Shown piece after piece: positions 54,308 to 64,000 of a stretch of DNA of 64,000 bases. The stretch spans positions 496,001-560,000 of the forward strand of contig NZ_JAGSYI010000001.1 in the NCBI RefSeq assembly GCF_025685625.1, read 5' to 3'. The translations under genes and the position numbers were made by a program. The notes under the pieces were generated by a model. That model was not told the origin of the DNA. It was given only the letters and a program-made list of their open reading frames with translations, and ran no database searches. The stretch is from Acidicapsa acidisoli. GTDB lineage: Bacteria; Acidobacteriota; Terriglobia; Terriglobales; Acidobacteriaceae. The first letter of the stretch is position 1; the number at the start of each line of letters is the position of its first letter.

Positions 54308-55453
54308 ATGTCGACTACACCAGCACCCGTTGTTCCCGCACTGAAACAGACCGCCCTCAATGCCACGCATCGCGCCCTAAAGGCGAAGATGGTCGACTTC
54401 GGCGGCTGGGACATGCCGGTTGAGTACTCCGGTCTTATCGCCGAACATCTGGCCGTGCGCACAGCCGTTGGCCTCTTCGACGTGGGCCACATGGGCGAGA
54501 TCCAGTTTCGCGGGCCCAATTCGCTGGCTGCAGTTCAGCGCATCACCATGAACGACGCTTCGCGCCTCAAAGACGGTCAGGCGCAGTATTCCGCGCTGCT
54601 CACGCCCGAGGGCACCTTCGTCGACGACATTCTGGTTCACAAGCTCGGCGACAACGACTACCTGCTCGTGGTCAATGCCGGAACCAAGGACAAGGACTAC
54701 GCTTGGATTCGCAAGCAGGTGGGCGGCATGCCTGGCATCCACATCAGCGATTACTCCAGCTACTACACGCAACTCGCCATTCAGGGTCCACGAGCGCTGG
54801 AGACCTTGCAGAAGTTAACCAAAGTCGATCTCGCTGGGATCAAGAACTACTGGTTCACTTTTGGTCAGGTAGCCGGGGTCTACAACACGCTTATCGCCCG
54901 CACAGGCTACTCGGGCGAAGACGGCTTCGAAATCTACGTCCCCTCCGACGTCGTCACCAGCGAGAAGGTCTGGAACGCCGGACTCGAAGCCGGCACAGAG
55001 TTCGGCATTCTGCCCTGCGGCCTGGGCGCACGCAATACCCTGCGTCTGGAAGCGGGAATGCCTCTCTATGAACACGAGATCACCGACCAGACGAACGTGT
55101 TCGAAGCTGGCCTCGATCGCTGGCTCAAGCTCGAAAAAGACTCCGACTTCCTCGGGCGCGAGGCGCTGCTCGCCGTCAAGGAATCCGGCGGCCCGGCGCG
55201 CAAGCTCGTTGGCCTCGAAATGGTGGAACGAGGCATCGCCCGCGACGGCTACCCGGTGCTCAACGAAGCGGGCGAGCAGATCGGCGTTGTCACCAGCGGG
55301 TCGCCTGCGCCGTTTTTGAAGACCAACATTGCCTACGCATACGTACCTGCATCTGTCGCCGAGAGCAAGGAAGATGTCTTTGTGCAGGTCCGCACGAATA
55401 AGGTCCGTGCAAAGCAGGTTTCGACGCCGTTCTATAAGCGGATCAAGAAATAA
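54308..55453 (+). CDS. gcvT: aminomethyltransferase (glycine cleavage T protein)
   Basis: Transfers the aminomethyl carbon from the H protein to tetrahydrofolate, releasing ammonia, in the glycine cleavage system. The 381-residue protein shows MVDFGGWDMPVEYSGLIAEHLAVRTAVGLFDVGHMGE at the start, RTGYSGEDGFEIYVP in the middle and the C-terminal barrel with VTSGSPAPFLKTNIAYAYV. GAGG lies ten bases before the ATG. gcvH and gcvP are not within the window downstream; the 5' leader shows no glycine riboswitch that I can recognise. Confidence 0.95.
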   Translation: MSTTPAPVVPALKQTALNATHRALKAKMVDFGGWDMPVEYSGLIAEHLAVRTAVGLFDVGHMGEIQFRGPNSLAAVQRITMNDASRLKDGQAQYSALLTPEGTFVDDILVHKLGDNDYLLVVNAGTKDKDYAWIRKQVGGMPGIHISDYSSYYTQLAIQGPRALETLQKLTKVDLAGIKNYWFTFGQVAGVYNTLIARTGYSGEDGFEIYVPSDVVTSEKVWNAGLEAGTEFGILPCGLGARNTLRLEAGMPLYEHEITDQTNVFEAGLDRWLKLEKDSDFLGREALLAVKESGGPARKLVGLEMVERGIARDGYPVLNEAGEQIGVVTSGSPAPFLKTNIAYAYVPASVAESKEDVFVQVRTNKVRAKQVSTPFYKRIKK

Positions 55454-55574
55454 AAATAGGCTTTAGGTGGTAGCTGGCTAACTTGCCAGATCTTCTAGCA
55501 AAGGTAACGAGCCAATCAGCCTCTCACGGTGCTACATTAGTCGCACTCGATTCCTTAGCAGGAGGCGATGGCGC

Positions 55575-56093
55575 ATGTTACTTGCGGGTGGGAGAAGACA
55601 ATCAAGAGCTCCATGGTTAAACGGCGCTAATGGACGGGCTGGAGCCGCACTCCAGGCAATGGCCGATCACACCCGTCAGAATCTCACCGTAACTCCGTGG
55701 CCCGCAGCAGCGCCACTCGTTGTCACATCCCGGATTTTCGACGCAGCCGCCAATCTTGTGGCTACTGGCACGTACAACAGCGGCACTGGAATCCACGCGG
55801 AAGTCGACGCAATCAACACTCTGGGAGCAATTGCCTGGGTAAATCCGCACACAATACTTACCAGCCTGGAACCGTGCCCCCGATGCGCGGTGATCCTTCG
55901 AGCATTTCAAATGGCACATGGGTGGACGATTCAGGCGCCGGCAAGAGCATTTGCTTCCAACTGGGCTGGGGCTTATGCGTTGCCTGATGGCATATTCACT
56001 GTAGTTCTGAATCAGATGAATATCTCGGCGCTCGATCGTATGCACTATAGCGAAGAGATCAAGAGTGCAATCAAGACATTTGAATCCCGGTGA
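55575..56093 (+). CDS. cytidine deaminase-fold protein of unknown substrate
   Basis: The 172-residue protein has the zinc site of the deaminase superfamily: His74-Ala-Glu76 in TGIHAEVDAIN and Pro100-Cys101-x2-Cys104 in SLEPCPRCAVIL. The order H-x-E then P-C-x2-C is that of tRNA adenosine, guanine and related nucleobase deaminases. The surrounding residues do not match TadA, CMP/dCMP deaminase or RibD closely. AGGAGG precedes the ATG by about ten bases. It is alone between gcvT and a convergent VWFA gene, without immunity or secretion genes, so a toxin role is not supported. Confidence 0.78.
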   Translation: MLLAGGRRQSRAPWLNGANGRAGAALQAMADHTRQNLTVTPWPAAAPLVVTSRIFDAAANLVATGTYNSGTGIHAEVDAINTLGAIAWVNPHTILTSLEPCPRCAVILRAFQMAHGWTIQAPARAFASNWAGAYALPDGIFTVVLNQMNISALDRMHYSEEIKSAIKTFESR

Positions 56094-56150
56094 ACAGACC
56101 CGGGACCCAGGATCGGCGATTAAGAGTCACGGCGTTGAAAGAACATGAAA

Positions 56151-56226
56151 AACCGGCTTCCGGGCGGTGAAATGCCAGGAAAGCCGGTTCCCAGATATCC
56201 CTGCGCATTACCCTGAGATATCTGGG
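56151..56226. terminator. two hairpins between convergent genes
   Basis: AACCGGCTT (56151-56159) pairs with AAGCCGGTT (56181-56189), and CCCAGATATC (56190-56199) pairs with GATATCTGGG (56217-56226). The first left arm follows a run of A, which gives a U-tract for the minus-strand gene. Probable bidirectional termination region. Confidence 0.7.
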
Positions 56227-56250
56227 TGGTGCACTTCGCAAAGTGTAATA

Positions 56251-57198
56251 TCAGTCCTGCGCCAAACCCGGCCGGGCAACAAACACCTGTTCTGGTGCGT
56301 CGACTTCTGATCCAGCGGCTTTGAACTTCAGTTTGAACGTGTCAATCTGCGGCTTGCCATTCATCGGAACCGCAAAGCTCAATTCGTACTGGTTCTTGAA
56401 TCTGCGCGTTAGTTCCTCAAAATACGGTTGGAAGGAGACTGGATTTCCCATTCCTTCCCAGAAACTCTTGCCGCCGGTCGCCTGGGTAACCGAAAGCATC
56501 AGGTTCTGGCCTGCATTATTGGCATACTGCGTCCGGTCAAAACGGCCGCGGTCGGTCCAATAGATCGTGTAAACGATCAGATGGGCACGCACTGCATCGT
56601 TGATCGCCGCCTGCACATATGGATCTTCCGGATCGTAGCGGCGGTTATACTCGTCCACGCCGTCGGTCACCATCACCACTTCACGGCGCACATTTGTTTC
56701 CCGGGAGGGCCAGCGCTTGGACAGGTCCGACAGGCAGAAGTACGGGCTGCTGTTGACGCCCGCTCCACCCGCTGGAAGACGCAGCCCGTTCAGCGCCGCA
56801 GCGTGGTCGGTGGTAAATGGACCTGTAAGGTTGGCGTTGCCATTCATCATGTATCCGAGAGTCACCCGGACATTTGGCGGCAGGGTGTTCACAAACTGTG
56901 TAATGTCATCGAACTGGCGTCCCAGGCTGGTGCGCGCCGAGCTGTCGATCAGTACCACAAGCTCGATCGGATCGGTCGCGTTCCGCAGCGACTCAAAGTT
57001 CGACACTTTGGTGTCTTTGCCGTTCACCTTGATCGTCAGATCCTGCGCCGACACATTGGGCGCCTGATCTCCGTCATGCTTGGGCAAAATTGTCACAATC
57101 GCCTGCCCCTGGCCATCTTTTTCTCCCTGCGCGAATGCAGACGTGGACACCAGTAGCGCCCCGGCGGCAACATACATTGCAATTCCAAATCTCTTCAT
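56251..57198 (-). CDS. secreted VWFA-related acidobacterial domain protein
   Basis: The 315-residue protein has a Sec signal (MYVAAGALLVSTSAFAQ). The rest is the von Willebrand A-like domain known from Acidobacteriota (TIGR03436 type): AQDLTIKVNGKDTKVSNFESLR, then IELVVLIDSSARTSLG, where Asp85-Ser-Ser-Ala-Arg stands at the metal-dependent adhesion site but lacks the last serine of DxSxS. EVVMVTDGVDEYNRRYDPEDPY follows. Role unknown; probably an extracytoplasmic protein-protein module. Confidence 0.86.
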   Translation of the reverse strand: MKRFGIAMYVAAGALLVSTSAFAQGEKDGQGQAIVTILPKHDGDQAPNVSAQDLTIKVNGKDTKVSNFESLRNATDPIELVVLIDSSARTSLGRQFDDITQFVNTLPPNVRVTLGYMMNGNANLTGPFTTDHAAALNGLRLPAGGAGVNSSPYFCLSDLSKRWPSRETNVRREVVMVTDGVDEYNRRYDPEDPYVQAAINDAVRAHLIVYTIYWTDRGRFDRTQYANNAGQNLMLSVTQATGGKSFWEGMGNPVSFQPYFEELTRRFKNQYELSFAVPMNGKPQIDTFKLKFKAAGSEVDAPEQVFVARPGLAQD

Positions 57199-57614
57199 AC
57201 GAAATGCTCCCTTCGAGGCGTGAATGTCGGCTGTAAACGGCCCGCCAATTCAACTCACTTCACACCCACTATCTGTTAGACGCATCTCGAAGGTCAGGGA
57301 CTCAAAGCCATATCCTATCCCTTAAATAAGCTGAAAACAGGGATACCAGGGATTTTCAGCGCTGCGGCGGAAATGAACAGGATGCGGGAGTGGAATTTCG
57401 GACGATTTCGGGTTAATTCCCGGAGAGCCTTGATTTTCCGGGAACTCGCGGAAGCCCTTGAGTCGTAACTTTGATTCGTACCTGACTCCGGGTTCCAGCC
57501 CACGCCTGAAAAAGCGATGAATTTTTGTGCGTTTTGCGAGCGTTCCGCACCAGCGTTCGTCCAAACTGCCATAACTCCAGAGTTTTCAGGATTCAGCATA
57601 GAGGGAGATTGCCC
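57199..57614. other. intergenic region between divergent VWFA and TIGR03435 genes
   Basis: About 416 bases with promoters for both genes presumably inside. Short open frames here lack ribosome-binding sites. Several imperfect CCCGG/CCGGG segments occur around 57415-57450, with no clear palindrome. AGAGGGAG at the end serves the downstream gene. Confidence 0.45.
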
Positions 57615-58751
57615 ATGAAGAAGCTTCTACTTAGCCTCGTCGCGACGGCCCTGATTTCACCACTCGCTCTGCTCGCCCAGGATGTCACCGGGACATGGCA
57701 GGGAACACTCGATGTAGGCAGCGGCAAATCACTCCGCATTGTCCTGAAGGTTTCCAAGGCGGCTGACGGAACGCTGAAGGCCGTGAACTACAGTATCGAT
57801 CAAGGCGGGCAGCCCATTCCCGTTTCTACGATTTCCTTGCAGGGAACTGCCTTTAACTTCGCGGTCTCTATGATTGGCGGTAAGTACGAGGGAAAGTTGA
57901 GCGCTGACGGCAACTCCATCGCCGGAACCTGGAGCCAGGGCCCCAATCCGCTGCCGCTCAACTTTGCAAAAGCCACTCCCGCAACCACCTGGACGATTCC
58001 CGAGCCTCCGCCGGAGATTCCGCCGATGGCTGCTGACGCTTCTCCGGAATTTGAAGTCGCCACCATCAAGCCGAGCAACCCGGATACGCAAGGCCGGGGA
58101 TTCCGAGTGAGAGGCCGCGAATTCACGACGATGAACACGACACTCACCAGTCTGCTCACCTTTGCTTATGGATTACATCCGAAGCAGATCGTGGGCGCTC
58201 CAGCGTGGGTGGACACCGATAAGTTCGACATAACCGCGCAGCCCGATGCGCCCGGCAGGCCCAATGATACGCAGTGGAAAGCAATGCTGCAAAAGCTGCT
58301 GGCCGATCGCTTCCAACTTACCTTTCATCACGATAAGAAAGAACTCCCGATTTATGCGCTCGAAGTTGCCAAAAGCGGCTCGAAGCTGACCAAGAGTCAG
58401 GGCGACCCGAACGGCTTGCCAAGCATGTTCTTCCGAGGCCTCGGCAACCTGCCTGCCGCCAATGCGACGATGCAGGACTTCGCCGGGCTGCTTCAATCGG
58501 CTGTTCTCGACAAGCCGGTGGTGGATCAGACCGGACTCACGGGGCGCTTTGATTTCACGTTGAATTGGACGCCGGATGAGTCGCAATTCGTTGGATTGGG
58601 CGTCAAAGTACCTCCGCCGAGCGACAAGCCCGACGCGCCGCCGGGCCTGTTTACCGCAGTTCAGGAGCAGCTTGGGTTGAAGCTGGAGGCGACCAAAGCC
58701 CCCGTCGATGTGATCGTCATCGATAAGGTTGAGAAGCCTTCGGCAAACTAG
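57615..58751 (+). CDS. secreted TIGR03435-type soil-associated protein
   Basis: The 378-residue protein has a signal peptide (MKKLLLSLVATALISPLALLAQ), a small beta domain (DVTGTWQGTLDVGSGKSLRIVLKVSK to SIAGTWSQGPNPLPL) and, from about residue 150, the TIGR03435 domain: FEVATIKPSNPDTQGRGFRVRGREFTTMNTTLTSLLTFAYGLHPKQIVGAPAWVDTDKFDI, ending FTAVQEQLGLKLEATKAPVDVIVIDKVEKPSAN. Almost the same ending occurs in the M56 protease at 59268. Molecular function unknown. AGAGGGAG precedes the ATG. Confidence 0.88.
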   Translation: MKKLLLSLVATALISPLALLAQDVTGTWQGTLDVGSGKSLRIVLKVSKAADGTLKAVNYSIDQGGQPIPVSTISLQGTAFNFAVSMIGGKYEGKLSADGNSIAGTWSQGPNPLPLNFAKATPATTWTIPEPPPEIPPMAADASPEFEVATIKPSNPDTQGRGFRVRGREFTTMNTTLTSLLTFAYGLHPKQIVGAPAWVDTDKFDITAQPDAPGRPNDTQWKAMLQKLLADRFQLTFHHDKKELPIYALEVAKSGSKLTKSQGDPNGLPSMFFRGLGNLPAANATMQDFAGLLQSAVLDKPVVDQTGLTGRFDFTLNWTPDESQFVGLGVKVPPPSDKPDAPPGLFTAVQEQLGLKLEATKAPVDVIVIDKVEKPSAN

Positions 58752-58829
58752 CGGGGGCGTGTTCTCGACCGGCAATTCGCTTGTATTCAATGTTGGATTG
58801 GCTCGCACTGACAGGCCTGCAATTCTTGC

Positions 58830-58859
58830 TTGACGTAAAACATACAATTGTAGTAATTA
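58830..58859 (+). promoter_or_regulatory. BlaI-type operator within the blaI promoter
   Basis: TTGACG (58830-58835) as -35, TAATTA (58854-58859) as -10 with 18-base spacing. Between them is TACAATTGTA (58843-58852), a perfect palindrome matching the TACA-N2-TGTA core of BlaI/MecI operators. The start codon of the repressor gene is 25 bases further on. Confidence 0.8.
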
Positions 58860-58883
58860 TTCACACAAGCATAGGAGAGCGAA

Positions 58884-59264
58884 ATGTCAGCGCCGAAACT
58901 ATCCAAACTCGAATTTCAGATTATGGAAGTGCTGTGGAACCGAGGCGAGTCCTCCATCCGCGAGATTCAGGATGCATTTCCGGAGAAGCGCAAGCCCGCC
59001 TACACGACGATTCAGACCACCGTCTACCGCCTCGAAACAAAGGATGTAGTCCAGCGAATCAAGAAGGTCGGAAACTTCCACATCTTTTCAGCCGCAGTCT
59101 CGCGCGATGCCGCCCAGCGCCGCTTGATCGATGAACTGCTGGCCTTGTTTGGCGGCCGCACGCAACCGCTGATGGCGCACCTCGTGGAGTCAGGAAAGCT
59201 CTCCATGGAAGATGTGAAACAAGCCGAAAAGGCGCTGCGCAAGTTATCGAAGAAGGAGGATTGA
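58884..59264 (+). CDS. BlaI/MecI/CopY-family repressor
   Basis: The 126-residue protein has the family's N-terminal winged helix (PKLSKLEFQIMEVLWNRGESSIREIQDAFPEKRKPAYTTIQTTVYRLETKDVVQRIKKVGNFHIFSA) and a C-terminal dimerisation helix. In beta-lactam systems it is cleaved when the BlaR1 protease is activated. The partner protease gene starts three bases after its stop. A TACAATTGTA operator lies in its own promoter, so autorepression is expected. Here the signal is probably not a beta-lactam, since the partner lacks that sensor. Confidence 0.93.
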   Translation: MSAPKLSKLEFQIMEVLWNRGESSIREIQDAFPEKRKPAYTTIQTTVYRLETKDVVQRIKKVGNFHIFSAAVSRDAAQRRLIDELLALFGGRTQPLMAHLVESGKLSMEDVKQAEKALRKLSKKED

Positions 59265-59267
59265 TCT

Positions 59268-61010
59268 ATGATGCACGCGAACTGGATCTCAGCTCTTGCC
59301 AACCACCTTTGGCAATCGACACTGTTTGTACTCGCGGCGTGGATGCTTGCCTTCGCGTTGCGAAAGAACCAAGCCTCCACGCGCTACTGGATCTGGTTGA
59401 GTGCATCGTTGAAGTTTATGATGCCCTTCTCCTTGCTGATCGAAGCCGGCAAGCGCATGGGAGCCATGTTTGCTCTGCACGCGTCCCAGCCAATCGTATC
59501 CCAAGTCGTAGAGCGGGTTACGCAGCCGTTTCCACAAACTGAGTTGCTTTCGACTGCGATTCCAGCCGTGACGCTGCACAAAGCCAGCTTCTGGCCTGCT
59601 GCAGCTGCGTCGGTATGGGCGGCAGGTGTCTTGATTTTCGCCTGCATCTGGGCTCTGAAATGGTGGCAACTGCACGCAGCGGTACAAATGGCATCTCGGC
59701 ACGCCCTGGATGCCGCTGTGCCTGTGCTCTCTTCGAAATCGCTTGTTGAGCCAGGCGTCTTTGGCATCGTTCAGCCTGTGTTGCTTTTGCCTGAAGGAAT
59801 TGCCAATCACCTGACGCAGGCTCAGTTCGAGGCCATCCTCGCGCACGAAATGTGCCATGTCCGGCGGCGCGACAACCTCACCTTTGCCATGCACATGGCC
59901 GTTGAAACGGTCTTCTGGTTTCATCCTCTGATCTGGTGGATCAGAACACGTCTGATCGAAGAGCGCGAGCGCGCCTGCGACGAAGCCGTGTTGCAATCTG
60001 GCAACAACGCCGAAGTGTATGCGGAGGGAATTCTCAATGTCTGTAAGTTCTATATTGAGTCGCCACTTGCCTGCGCCTCCGGCGTAACTGGCTCAGACCT
60101 CAAGCAGCGCATTGTCCGCATCATGACCGGACGCCTCGGCAATAACCTCAGCATGGGTGGAAAACTGCTGTTAAGTGCCGTCGCAGCTGTAGCGATTGTC
60201 ATACCCATCGTTTTCGGGCTTGCGCATACGACGCAAATCTTCGCCCAAACCAAGGTTGAGGATTCATCAGCCGAACTCCCCCAATTTGAAGTAGTGTCGA
60301 TCAAGCCGAACAAATCGGACGACAATCGCACTGGATTTCTCCTCAGCAAGGGTGGCTTTTCTCTCAGCGGCGTGCCACTTCAGATGATGCTGAGAGAGGC
60401 TTTCGATGTCAATAACAGCCGAATCTTTGGATCGCCAAATTGGGCCAATACAGATCGCTTCAACGTCGAGGCCAAGGTATCCGAAGCTGACCTGCCAAAA
60501 TTGGATAACTTGGCGCCTGAGCAGCGCGTGAAAATGCTCCTGCCTGTGCTGCAAGATCGGTTCAATCTCAAGTATCATCACGAAACAAGAGAAATGACGG
60601 TATATGTTCTGACAGTCGCCAAAGGTGGTCTGAAGCTTAAAGAGGCTCCAGTACAGACCGGCGAAAAACACGGCGGCGTCAGGATGAACGGCCTTGGCGA
60701 TTTCCAGGGAGAGAACGTCAAAATCGAATTTCTTGGCCATGTGCTGTCGGAGCAGCCGGAGCTTGGACACACGATCCTCGACAAGACCGGCCTTACCGGC
60801 AGTTACGACTTTCACCTGCAATGGACGCCTGCTCAAACAGGGCCGATAGGGCCCGACAATTCCGCGTCTGGAAGCTCTGCTGCACCTGACACCAACAAGC
60901 CGGACCTGTTCACAGCGTTGCAGGAACAGCTAGGTCTCAAACTCGAATCACAAAAGGGGCCGGTCGATGTCATCGTGATCGACCATATTGAGAAGCCCTC
61001 GGCTAACTAG
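59268..61010 (+). CDS. BlaR1-type M56 protease fused to a TIGR03435 domain
   Basis: The 580-residue membrane protein has four hydrophobic segments in residues 1-310. The M56 zinc site is His193-Glu194-Met-Cys-His197, followed by LIEERERACDEAVLQSGNN, which carries the third ligand. After the last helix (LLLSAVAAVAIVIPIVFGLA) the extracytoplasmic part, from about residue 337, is a TIGR03435 domain (FEVVSIKPNKSDDNRTGFLLSKGGF to VIVIDHIEKPSAN). This sits where BlaR1 has its penicillin-binding sensor. No SxxK plus KTG beta-lactam motif is seen. AAGGAGG within the end of blaI serves its ATG. Predicted to cleave the BlaI repressor on sensing an unknown signal. Confidence 0.88.
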   Translation: MMHANWISALANHLWQSTLFVLAAWMLAFALRKNQASTRYWIWLSASLKFMMPFSLLIEAGKRMGAMFALHASQPIVSQVVERVTQPFPQTELLSTAIPAVTLHKASFWPAAAASVWAAGVLIFACIWALKWWQLHAAVQMASRHALDAAVPVLSSKSLVEPGVFGIVQPVLLLPEGIANHLTQAQFEAILAHEMCHVRRRDNLTFAMHMAVETVFWFHPLIWWIRTRLIEERERACDEAVLQSGNNAEVYAEGILNVCKFYIESPLACASGVTGSDLKQRIVRIMTGRLGNNLSMGGKLLLSAVAAVAIVIPIVFGLAHTTQIFAQTKVEDSSAELPQFEVVSIKPNKSDDNRTGFLLSKGGFSLSGVPLQMMLREAFDVNNSRIFGSPNWANTDRFNVEAKVSEADLPKLDNLAPEQRVKMLLPVLQDRFNLKYHHETREMTVYVLTVAKGGLKLKEAPVQTGEKHGGVRMNGLGDFQGENVKIEFLGHVLSEQPELGHTILDKTGLTGSYDFHLQWTPAQTGPIGPDNSASGSSAAPDTNKPDLFTALQEQLGLKLESQKGPVDVIVIDHIEKPSAN

Positions 61011-61064
61011 CCTTTGCAATGAATCCGTATCGCACCAAATTAACACCTGGTCGGAGCCACTCAG

Positions 61065-64000
61065 TTGATCTCGTTGCGGCGAACCTACAATCTGCTACGT
61101 CTGCTCTGCTTACTGGCATGCCTTTCTGCGGCAATGTACGCCGTAGCGTCTGAACATCACGGCCAGGTAACGTTCAACAGCCTGCCGCTGCCCGGCGCAA
61201 CTGTCACAGCGACTCGCGGAACTGATAAGCTCGCCACCATCACCGACAGCCGTGGCGTTTATTCTTTTCCTGACCTGAAGGATGGCGCATGGACGATTGA
61301 AGTCCAGAAGCTTTTCTTTGTCCCACTTAAGCAAGAGGTCGTAGTCTCGCCGGACGCGCCCGCTGCGACATGGGAGTCGAAGCTGTTACCGCTCGAAGAA
61401 ATCAAGGCCCAGGCGAAGCTTCAGACATCAACACCCGCCGTCGCAATACCCACGCAGAACAACGGCGAGGCCGCAAAGCCGCAAGAGATGAGTGTTGCCA
61501 CATCGCCACCCCCTGATCCCGCGAAGCCGCAGGAAGAGTCTGATCAGCGCGCCAATGATGGACTTCTTATCAACGGCAGCGTGAACAACGCGGCGTCCTC
61601 TCCATTTGCACTTTCGCAAGCCTTCGGCAATACCCGCAATGGCAGCAAAGGGCTTTATAACGGCGGTCTCGCGTTGATCCTCGATAACTCCGCGCTCGAT
61701 GCTCGGCCATATTCTCTAAGCGGCCTGGAGATACCGAAGCCCGCGTATAACCAGGTGACAGGCGTAGCGACTCTCGGCGGACCTATCCGAATCCCTCATC
61801 TCCTTTGGCATGGCCCTAACTTCTTTGTCGGCTATCAATGGATGCGAAGCCAAACATCAACGGCATTGCCGGGCCTAGTTCCGGATATGGCGGAGCGCAA
61901 CGGCGACTTCTCGGACGTCCTGAATGCGCAGGGCCAGCCGATCCAGATATTCGACCCGGCGACAGGTCTTCCGTTTCCCGGCAACGTAGCTCCCATCAGT
62001 CCTCAAGCGCAGACGCTGTTGAATTTGTATCCGTTGCCCAACGTTACGGGTAACTCGGGCTATAACTACCAAATCCCGGTTCTCTCCGGCACGCATCAGG
62101 ACTCATTGCAGGCGCGGCTGGATAAGTCGATTGGCGCGAAGAATCAGCTATTCGGCCGGTTTGCCTTTCAAAGCACACGCTCCGGAAATACGAACCTGTT
62201 CGGGTTTCTAGACAGGACCGATGCGCTTGGCATCAACTCCGACGTGAACTGGACACATCGCATCAGCCACGAGATGCTGATGACAACCGGATACAGATTC
62301 AGTCGGCTGCGAACGGGCGTTACGCCCTACTTCGAGAATCGGCAGAATGTCTCCGGTGCTGCCGGCATCAACGGCAACGACCAGGACCCGGCGGATTGGG
62401 GTCCTCCGTCGCTGACTTTTTCGAGCGGCATCGCTGGGCTGTCCGATACGCAAAGCTCCTTGAATCGCAACGAAACCAACGCCGTGTCGTACTCGATGAA
62501 CTGGAATCATCTTCGCCATTACTGGACGTTCGGCGTCGATTTTCGAAGGCAGGAGTTCAATTACCTGACGCAGCAAAATCCGCGCGGCGCATTTGCTTTC
62601 ACTGGAGCCGCTACGCAGGGCATGGTCAACGGCGTTCCTACTGGCGGATCGGATTTCGCAGACTTCCTGCTGGGGATTCCGGATACCAGCGCGATTGCAT
62701 ACGGAAATGCCGACAAGTACTTTCGCGAATCTGTCTACGACGCCTATGCAACGGATGACTTCCGGGTAAGTCCCGAACTAACCATCAATGCGGGAGCACG
62801 CTGGGAATACGGCGCGCCGATTACAGAGTCATTTGGCCGGCTTGTGAATCTGGATGTGTCGGACGGCTTCGCTGCCGTGGCGCCGGTGGTTGCAAGCGAT
62901 CCTGTCGGGCCACTCACTGGACAGAAATATCCCGATTCGCTCATTCGCCCAGATAAGCGATTGGTTGAGCCGCGCATTGGAATCTCCTGGCGTCCAATCT
63001 CCGGTTCTTCCATCGTCGTGCGCGCAGGATACGGAATCTATTCGGATACTTCGGTGTATCAGTCAACTGCGCTATCGATGGCGCAGCAAGCGCCGCTCTC
63101 CAAGAGCCTCAGCGTGCAAAACAGCACGGCGTGCCCACTGACGCTAGCGAACGGGTTCAACCCGTGTTCCTCGACAACATCCGACACATTCGCTGTCGAC
63201 CCCAATTTCCGCGTCGGCTATGCGCAGGTATGGCAGCTATCTGTGCAAAGCGACCTGCCTGCCGCGCTGCAATTGACGGCAACTTATCTCGGCATCAAAG
63301 GAACGCGAGGCGTGCAGGAGTTCCTGCCCAATACATATCCGATAGGCGCTGCCAATCCATGCCCGGGCTGCCCGATTGGGTTCGTCTATCGCACCTCCAA
63401 CGGCGATTCCACGCGGGAATCGGGGATGGTCCAATTGCGGCGGAGATTGCGGCGCGGCTTTACAGCATCGCTGCAATACACGTATGCGAAATCTCTGGAT
63501 GACGACTCAGTGCTCGGCGGTCAAGGCCCAGTAGCTGCGGGCTCAACCAGTCCTACATCGACGCAGGCTGCTCCCGTCATCGCGCAGAACTGGCTGAATC
63601 TCAAAGCGGAGCGCGGTTTATCGACCTTTGACCAGCGCAATCTGCTGAACCTTCAACTGCAATACACATCGGGCATGGGGCTGCGCGGCGGCACGCTGAT
63701 GAATGGCTGGAGAGGCGCGCTGCTGAAGGAGTGGACAATCCTCTCGACGATTGCCGCTGGGACAGGTTTGCCCGAGACACCGATCTATCTTGCGGCCGTG
63801 CCGGGCACTGGCGTGACCGGCACGATTCGCCCTGATTTCACGGGCAAATCCGTCAGCGCGGCTCCCTCGGGACTGCATCTAAATCCTGCGGCGTATTCGG
63901 CGCCTGCACTGGGTCAATGGGGAACTGCCGGCAAAGACTCCATTACCGGACCTGGACAATTCAGTTTGAATGGCTCGATGTCGCGAACATTCCGGCTCGC
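61065..64000 (+). CDS. Oar-like TonB-dependent receptor (partial, 3' end outside window)
   Basis: An open frame runs from a TTG (GGAG eight bases upstream) to the window edge, about 978 codons, without a stop. A signal-like stretch (LLRLLCLLACLSAAMYAVAS) is followed by a carboxypeptidase-regulatory-like domain (GQVTFNSLPLPGATVTATRG to SRGVYSFPDLKDGAWTIEV), a proline-rich link, and a beta-barrel with GPNFFVGYQWMRSQ, ERNGDFSDVLNAQGQPIQIFDPATG and LDKSIGAKNQLFGRFAFQ. This is the acidobacterial Oar/CarbopepD_reg group. Ligand unknown. It lies 54 bases after the M56::TIGR03435 gene and may belong to the same operon. Confidence 0.87.
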   Translation, partial: MISLRRTYNLLRLLCLLACLSAAMYAVASEHHGQVTFNSLPLPGATVTATRGTDKLATITDSRGVYSFPDLKDGAWTIEVQKLFFVPLKQEVVVSPDAPAATWESKLLPLEEIKAQAKLQTSTPAVAIPTQNNGEAAKPQEMSVATSPPPDPAKPQEESDQRANDGLLINGSVNNAASSPFALSQAFGNTRNGSKGLYNGGLALILDNSALDARPYSLSGLEIPKPAYNQVTGVATLGGPIRIPHLLWHGPNFFVGYQWMRSQTSTALPGLVPDMAERNGDFSDVLNAQGQPIQIFDPATGLPFPGNVAPISPQAQTLLNLYPLPNVTGNSGYNYQIPVLSGTHQDSLQARLDKSIGAKNQLFGRFAFQSTRSGNTNLFGFLDRTDALGINSDVNWTHRISHEMLMTTGYRFSRLRTGVTPYFENRQNVSGAAGINGNDQDPADWGPPSLTFSSGIAGLSDTQSSLNRNETNAVSYSMNWNHLRHYWTFGVDFRRQEFNYLTQQNPRGAFAFTGAATQGMVNGVPTGGSDFADFLLGIPDTSAIAYGNADKYFRESVYDAYATDDFRVSPELTINAGARWEYGAPITESFGRLVNLDVSDGFAAVAPVVASDPVGPLTGQKYPDSLIRPDKRLVEPRIGISWRPISGSSIVVRAGYGIYSDTSVYQSTALSMAQQAPLSKSLSVQNSTACPLTLANGFNPCSSTTSDTFAVDPNFRVGYAQVWQLSVQSDLPAALQLTATYLGIKGTRGVQEFLPNTYPIGAANPCPGCPIGFVYRTSNGDSTRESGMVQLRRRLRRGFTASLQYTYAKSLDDDSVLGGQGPVAAGSTSPTSTQAAPVIAQNWLNLKAERGLSTFDQRNLLNLQLQYTSGMGLRGGTLMNGWRGALLKEWTILSTIAAGTGLPETPIYLAAVPGTGVTGTIRPDFTGKSVSAAPSGLHLNPAAYSAPALGQWGTAGKDSITGPGQFSLNGSMSRTFRL

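Follow-up and report, generated by a model that had tools for sequence, protein, structure and literature searches.

In a 64,000-nucleotide stretch of the Acidicapsa acidisoli genome (contig NZ_JAGSYI010000001.1, positions 496,001 to 560,000 of the forward strand; hereafter the window), genes for a BlaI-type repressor and a BlaR1-like M56 protease are followed by the gene of an Oar-type outer-membrane barrel without a recognisable plug, and the protease ends in DUF3738, the domain of the TIGR03435 family. Across the class, the conserved unit is a DUF3738 gene, this plugless barrel and a VWA gene (of TIGR03436 in the window's genome), and the BlaI-M56 pair is an add-on to it. It is proposed that DUF3738 works with the barrel in the periplasm and, where it is carried by an M56 protease, reports the state of the complex to BlaI, a tentative reading whose probability is put at about 0.48. 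TIGR03435 and TIGR03436, acidobacterial families without known function, gain a shared and testable setting in this way, one operon around one plugless barrel. Moreover, the arrangement suggests that BlaR1-type proteases may, by domain exchange, sense the cell's own envelope and not just antibiotics, and a large barrel without a recognisable plug raises the question of how it is closed and which substances cross it.

The conserved unit and its barrel

As the genome of the window holds at least 65 Oar-like genes, adjacency to a barrel needed a test. TIGR03435 was matched in 40 of the 121 genomes of the class (over the cut-off in 38), and 31 of the 40 served for a survey of M56 operons; genomes whose matches were very numerous or not fully scored (G001, G038, G040, G045, G073, G081 and G118) and those with weak TIGR03435 matches (G079 and G114) were left aside. 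Of 108 M56 matches, the 101 that exceeded the cut-off were fetched with their surroundings and gave 18 M56::DUF3738 operons and 79 other M56 operons. Barrels were recognised by profiles made from the window barrel and from the Oar genes of the fetched loci and the window's genome, used in the same way on both operon classes. The next same-strand gene within 600 bp was Oar-like in 9 of the 18 fused operons, which span four families, and in none of the 79 others (Fisher p 3e-8, indicative only since the genomes are related), while a same-strand BlaI gene is present in 17/18 and 78/79, respectively. Under a wider distance limit two of the 79 controls, L154 and L187, would count as well (Oar-like genes 1.8 and 1.0 kb downstream); a same-strand Oar-like gene stands upstream of blaI in the controls L111 and L115. 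The preliminary description of the window had linked the fusion to BlaI and Oar genes, and across genomes the association of the fusion with an Oar-like barrel gene is not random.

Twelve linked barrels align over their full length, the eleven others being 51-68% identical to that of the window, which in its complete form (1035 aa, taken from locus L097 of the genome, 7066-10170) consists of CarboxypepD_reg, a Pro-rich linker and the PF25183 barrel. A scan of two linked barrels at E up to 1 gave no match to the plug domain PF07715; the same domain was matched in all three ordinary Oar proteins scanned from the genome of the window, but over the curated cut-off only in one (E 2e-10; others 0.0016 and 0.27). 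In addition, the residues before the first shared barrel motif, measured with untrimmed starts, average 220 (186-285) in the 12 linked barrels against 300 (266-335) in 20 ordinary ones, and by eye the plug segments of ordinary Oar proteins are missing from the linked barrels, with the Pro-rich linker in their place. The uptake role that had been considered for the locus is thus not the natural reading of such a barrel. Oar of Myxococcus xanthus is reported to be a TonB-dependent transporter required for PopC secretion, which it fails to support without its plug domain (PMC6434023). The linked barrels share with it a CarboxypepD_reg N-terminus and a TonB-receptor-type barrel, and are unlike the protein described there in that no plug can be recognised.

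The reach of the subfamily was assessed by running a profile of the twelve linked barrels against the 121 genomes, with the best six first-look candidates per genome scored and membership set at more than 900 bits, two sister-type matches (start near profile position 181) being left out. The 35 matches obtained place at least one such barrel in 33 of the 40 TIGR03435-positive genomes versus 1 of the 81 others (p 1e-21). The single match in a TIGR03435-negative genome (G088) is a contig-end fragment; counting the two sister barrels, the latter figure is 2/81. Among the candidates scored, one copy was found per genome, and two in G117, so that these copy numbers are lower bounds. Among the 33 barrel open reading frames (ORFs) in fetched loci, 30 of the 32 that could be assessed are preceded by a same-strand DUF3738 gene at no more than 900 bp (28 at no more than 235 bp), and 28 of 31 are followed within 500 bp by a relative of the VWA protein. 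Twelve of these barrels had built the profile and, together with that of G045, were known to be linked beforehand; 17 of the 19 other assessable barrels have DUF3738 upstream as well, the exceptions being in G081 and G103. None of 38 other assessable Oar genes has a DUF3738 or VWA neighbour, a weak control for DUF3738 since most come from the window's genome with its two DUF3738 genes. BlaI and M56::DUF3738 head 12 of the 33 loci, and L243 may be a thirteenth such locus, truncated where its contig stops; the fusion adjoins the barrel in seven of the twelve, and free DUF3738 genes intervene in five.

The two sister Oar barrels (L275:4102-7512, minus strand, and L276:3472-7038) stand without DUF3738 and bear long Gly-rich stretches at the plug position, and a VWA gene follows both (L275 by search, L276 by eye). 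Given these stretches in barrels without DUF3738, no claim is made that DUF3738 caused the loss of the plug.

A BlaR1-type protease with DUF3738 at the sensor position

The genes of the operon (Table 1) lie on one strand, with 3 bp between blaI and the protease gene and 54 bp between the latter and the barrel gene, and no intergenic terminator-like site came up when 57400-61200 was scanned with a simple method (two inside the protease gene; 4.1 expected). The whole 7.1 Mb genome contains six M56 and six BlaI matches and only two TIGR03435 matches, both at this locus, which reach 230 and 212.6 bits against a curated cut-off of 40. As had been described, a free secreted protein upstream and the protease have like endings, both finishing in EKPSAN; the free protein has a signal peptide by eye and a C-terminal DUF3738, and its N-terminal region had no Pfam match at E up to 0.001. 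The downstream Oar-like protein likewise stands by its position and its PF25183 and CarboxypepD_reg matches, with the amendments that no plug domain is seen and that a VWA gene follows beyond the window. The scanned genes, seven in 54308-64000 and five in L097 starting with the barrel, include neither a beta-lactamase nor a penicillin-binding protein.

Table 1. Features of the locus (window positions, except those in locus L097 of the same genome)
Feature	Position	Strand	Details
Secreted TIGR03435/DUF3738 protein	57615-58751	+	378 aa; TIGR03435 E 3e-68, DUF3738 E 4e-68
Operator-like MecI/BlaI-type palindrome ACATACAATTGTAGTA	58840-58855	+	Upstream of blaI; core TACAATTGTA at 58843-58852
BlaI/MecI-family repressor	58884-59264	+	126 aa; PF03965 E 1.5e-25
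BlaR1-like M56 zinc protease with C-terminal DUF3738	59268-61010	+	PF05569 E 1.5e-32, residues 16-283; DUF3738 E 2e-57, residues 373-574
Oar-type outer-membrane barrel without recognisable plug	61065-64000, gene end about 64172 beyond the window	+	PF25183 E 6e-143; CarboxypepD_reg (PF13620)
TIGR03436 VWA gene	L097:10177-12285, outside the window	+ (one strand with the blaI operon)	3 bp past the barrel; 232 bits against a cut-off of 81

The family matches of the protease bear out the earlier view that it ends in TIGR03435 where BlaR1 has its penicillin sensor: a search at E up to 0.001 matched no penicillin-binding domain in it, and its only region covered by the NCBIfam BlaR1/MecR1 models is the protease part, within residues 35-322. 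The repressor matches the staphylococcal penicillinase repressor 1sd4 (E 1.3e-8), phmmer links the protease sequence to BlaR1 (E 8e-8), and a Foldseek search with the full-length protease model (mean pLDDT 81.7; low confidence at residues 72-103, 270-274, 321-334 and 525-538) returned six matches at E up to 0.001, all of them BlaR1 chains (best 8exs, E 4.8e-6). H193, E194, H197, D202, E234 and D238 are invariant in alignment A2, which holds 27 of the 34 M56::DUF3738 proteins seen, and the HExxH...ExxxD spacing equals that of H201, H205, D210, E242 and D246 of BlaR1, as numbered in PMC9834060. By alignment, the M56 part keeps the catalytic residues of BlaR1. In the structural model DUF3738 (about residues 338-580) starts immediately past the final long helix (296-336), the position of the BlaR1 sensor; the membrane segments are predicted from BlaR1 homology and this model.

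Compared with BlaR1-BlaI and MecR1-MecI of staphylococci (PDB 8exp-8ext, 1sd4), the system thus has a like M56 membrane protease with HExxH...E...D at the same spacing, an adjoining BlaI/MecI-type repressor gene, a candidate MecI-type operator palindrome upstream and a separate C-terminal domain past the last membrane helix. It is unlike them in having DUF3738 at the place of the penicillin-binding sensor and, downstream, an outer-membrane barrel and a VWA protein in place of beta-lactamase or penicillin-binding genes. It would work like BlaR1-BlaI but, because the penicillin-binding sensor is absent, it is not BlaR1 by membership as far as its domains tell. The M56-DUF3738 architecture alone is probably not new to annotators, as NCBI presumably uses product names like 'M56 and DUF3738 domain-containing protein'.

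For the operator scan, we took the MecI/BlaI consensus to be TACTACA-NN-TGTAGTA. Allowing up to 3 mismatches, the palindrome before blaI is the sole match in the 64 kb window, with 0.19 expected and at least one match in 19 of 100 shuffled windows; the BlaI-type palindrome noted earlier in the repressor promoter region, with its core TACAATTGTA, is confirmed as a candidate operator. Scores of at least 11 of 14 were reached upstream of BlaI in 6 of 26 regions of M56::DUF3738 operons (shuffled 1.2%) and upstream of other BlaI genes in 7 of 78 (shuffled 1.0%). Since they precede BlaI in both operon classes, MecI-type sites are, as candidate operators, general for these repressors. The shorter TACANNTGTA, tried as a mark of fused operons (3/26 versus 0/78), was dropped, as MecI-type palindromes of a looser kind are found before other BlaI genes, too.

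Several observations lie beside this comparison. Divergent to the DUF3738 gene, 56251-57198 (minus strand) encodes a secreted-looking protein with a weak TIGR03436 match (57.9 bits, cut-off 81), a second VWA-type gene here. Elsewhere, L092:6899-8995 is an M56::DUF3738::DUF3471 protein, among the few with a DUF3738 that is not C-terminal, and L017:2223-4314 carries BlaI and M56::DUF3738 on a metagenome-assembled contig labelled Gammaproteobacteria, by transfer or binning error.

DUF3738 on free proteins and on transducers

The alignment and tree of DUF3738 comprise 70 of 82 domains, 12 partial, internal or divergent ones having been dropped. The model built from this alignment has a mean pLDDT of 95.2, a confident prediction that counts in favour of the earlier reading, as does the non-random association with the barrel gene. 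No PDB chain matched the model significantly (Foldseek, best E 0.75), and the profile gave chance-level matches only against PDB sequences (E 0.23 to 0.88). The fetched loci contain 128 distinct DUF3738 domains, of which 125 extend to the profile end. Among the latter, 116 stand at the extreme C-terminus of their protein, with a final Asn in 108 and P-x-x-N in 103, mostly as P-S/T-x-N. Six internal copies, in two-DUF3738 proteins, carry this motif unchanged or nearly so, and a free C-terminal end is therefore not strictly required. Two-DUF3738 proteins occur at L059, L061, L065, L067 and L073, and their C-terminal domains make up a starred clade of the tree (99). Large expansions are also found, with 49 DUF3738 matches in G111, 35 in G095 and 33 in G117, against one or two plugless barrels found in each of these genomes.

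On the tree, the labels free, M56 and FecR require 17 changes (shuffled mean 24.1), and at least six are forced by starred branches for the M56 label; these counts point to repeated gain or loss of DUF3738 on transducers by fusion or fission. FecR proteins are inner-membrane transducers for outer-membrane receptors. At L066:4747-6935 of genome G038, a FecR::DUF3738 gene follows, and overlaps with, a gene for a sigma factor with sigma-70 regions 2 and 4. Seven of the eight FecR-like matches of this genome were fetched with their loci, and five are FecR::DUF3738 (L066, L237-L239 and L242; the sigma factor gene was examined at L066); at one of the seven loci a DUF3738 gene comes next. With FecA-FecR-FecI cell-surface signalling, the likeness lies in an outer-membrane barrel tied to a transducer with a C-terminal periplasmic domain and, in this one genome, in DUF3738 itself on FecR beside a sigma factor gene. 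The systems are unlike in that here an M56 protease serves as transducer and a BlaI repressor as its target, and in that the STN signalling domain was not found in the two linked barrels scanned.

A derivation of DUF3738 from two STN modules was considered but is not claimed. The succession of helices and strands fitted, but in profile comparisons with the STN domains of 21 acidobacterial proteins, five of six gave a probability of at most 1.3%, and the sixth, 14.7% over 30 columns, was matched by 0 of 60 column shuffles but lay off the register expected from the repeat. No STN structure is among the 50 listed of the 70 Foldseek matches of the DUF3738 model. An internal duplication of the domain is only suggestive, as its score of 19.5 was equalled by 0 of 200 column shuffles, yet the HHsearch probability is 4.6%.

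Proposed function and origin of the locus

The preliminary description had suggested that the locus is a signalling system with TIGR03435 as its probable sensor. The signalling part is supported by the BlaI/BlaR1-type pair, the position of DUF3738 at the sensor site, the non-random link to an outer-membrane gene and the FecR fusions of one genome. In the proposed mechanism, BlaI would repress its own promoter through the candidate palindrome, and the periplasmic DUF3738 of the M56 protein would bind the plugless barrel or its VWA partner, as the free DUF3738 proteins would. An altered contact, when the barrel is empty, occupied or unassembled, might then shift the protease to a BlaI-cutting state, and with BlaI cut the operon would be derepressed. 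The signal would be the state of the cell's own outer-membrane complex instead of a beta-lactam.

Several findings weigh against this proposal. Half of the M56::DUF3738 operons (9/18) have no adjoining barrel, and the fusion may therefore work without one. Conversely, 20 of the 33 barrel loci show no BlaI-M56 pair, some being cut by contig ends, and the switch is therefore optional. Barrel-adjacent DUF3738 domains are scattered on the tree (9 changes, 12 rows) and form no special barrel-partner clade, and several genomes with dozens of DUF3738 genes have one or two plugless barrels found. Superposition of the whole protease chain on BlaR1 is poor (TM-score 0.33, rmsd 17). No operator match precedes the free DUF3738 gene in the window scan with up to 3 mismatches, and a simple promoter scan of 57400-61200 gave no promoter-like site on the plus strand and no sigma-70-like promoter upstream of blaI. 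FecR::DUF3738 was seen in one genome only, with FecR-like matches in 18 other genomes of the 38 searched; confidence is slightly lowered since the FecR support comes from one genome and the plug test from few proteins.

The explanation first offered for the locus was that DUF3738 senses an extracytoplasmic small molecule or peptide, which M56::DUF3738 would announce to BlaI, free DUF3738 would compete for or deliver, and the barrel would move. The C-terminal place of the domain in both M56 and FecR proteins suits a ligand sensor, as do its compact predicted fold (pLDDT 95) and the numerous free paralogues, such as the 49 matches of G111. Such a sensor has no need of one barrel subfamily beside it in 30 of 32 loci or of a conserved extreme C-terminus (Asn end in 108/116), and the PDB search, with a best E of 0.75, offers no related fold that would suggest a ligand class; this explanation is considered unlikely. 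A further reading is doubtful to a slightly greater degree. Here DUF3738 would be a separate, interchangeable plug or gate of the plugless Oar-type barrel, recognised by its P-S/T-x-N C-terminus, and gate engagement would be read through the same domain on a BlaR1-type protease or a FecR anti-sigma protein. If true, such channels would form a new class in the outer membrane, equipped with an occupancy sensor of their own.

It is unlikely, too, that DUF3738 is mainly structural, as a separate plug of the plugless barrel or as its docking or export tag, with the M56 fusion tethering the protease to this machine and signalling being secondary. The missing plug, the excess of DUF3738 matches (up to 49) over plugless barrels (one or two per genome) and the usual C-terminal place with P-S/T-x-N at the extreme end would all fit. 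However, the two sister barrels that lack DUF3738 also lack a normal plug, so the domain is not the sole answer to plug loss; many free DUF3738 ORFs (242-300 aa) barely exceed the domain and leave little export cargo, and BlaI beside M56 points to regulation. An ordinary accessory, resistance-type M56-BlaI regulator placed by chance beside an abundant outer-membrane family, conceivable in a genome with 6 M56, 6 BlaI and at least 65 Oar-like genes and at a locus between genes that adjoin in most relatives, is already disfavoured and highly improbable, as an Oar-like next gene was found in 0/79 DUF3738-free M56 operons versus 9/18 with DUF3738, across four families.

The operon is undescribed in the papers that could be searched, and its switch is a variant of the BlaR1-BlaI kind. 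TIGR03435, DUF3738 and TIGR03436 are not mentioned in the open-access papers searched, most subscription papers being outside the search, and no paper on this arrangement appeared, by title and start of abstract, under M56 with BlaI and Acidobacteria, BlaR1/M56 sensors, or Acidobacteria with Oar and VWFA. The family entries of TIGR03435/DUF3738 and TIGR03436, in their printed form, do not mention that both flank one barrel subfamily.

The surroundings of the operon bear on its origin. In the window's genome, gcvT (54308-55453) and gcvH-gcvPA-gcvPB (L097:12648-16247) lie about 11 kb apart with the operon between them, and in 27 of the 29 other genomes of the family whose loci were returned, gcvH was found no more than about 1.5 kb away from gcvT. 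The pair of genomes that depart from this are those nearest by GcvT. TIGR03435 is patchy in distribution, with the 40 of 121 genomes in the class and 23 of 198 in a sample of the phylum that includes the window's family. Together, the split of gcvT from gcvH and the patchy distribution suggest that the locus may have been acquired and inserted here. The G+C content of the four operon genes is 55-58%, near the 58% of the window.

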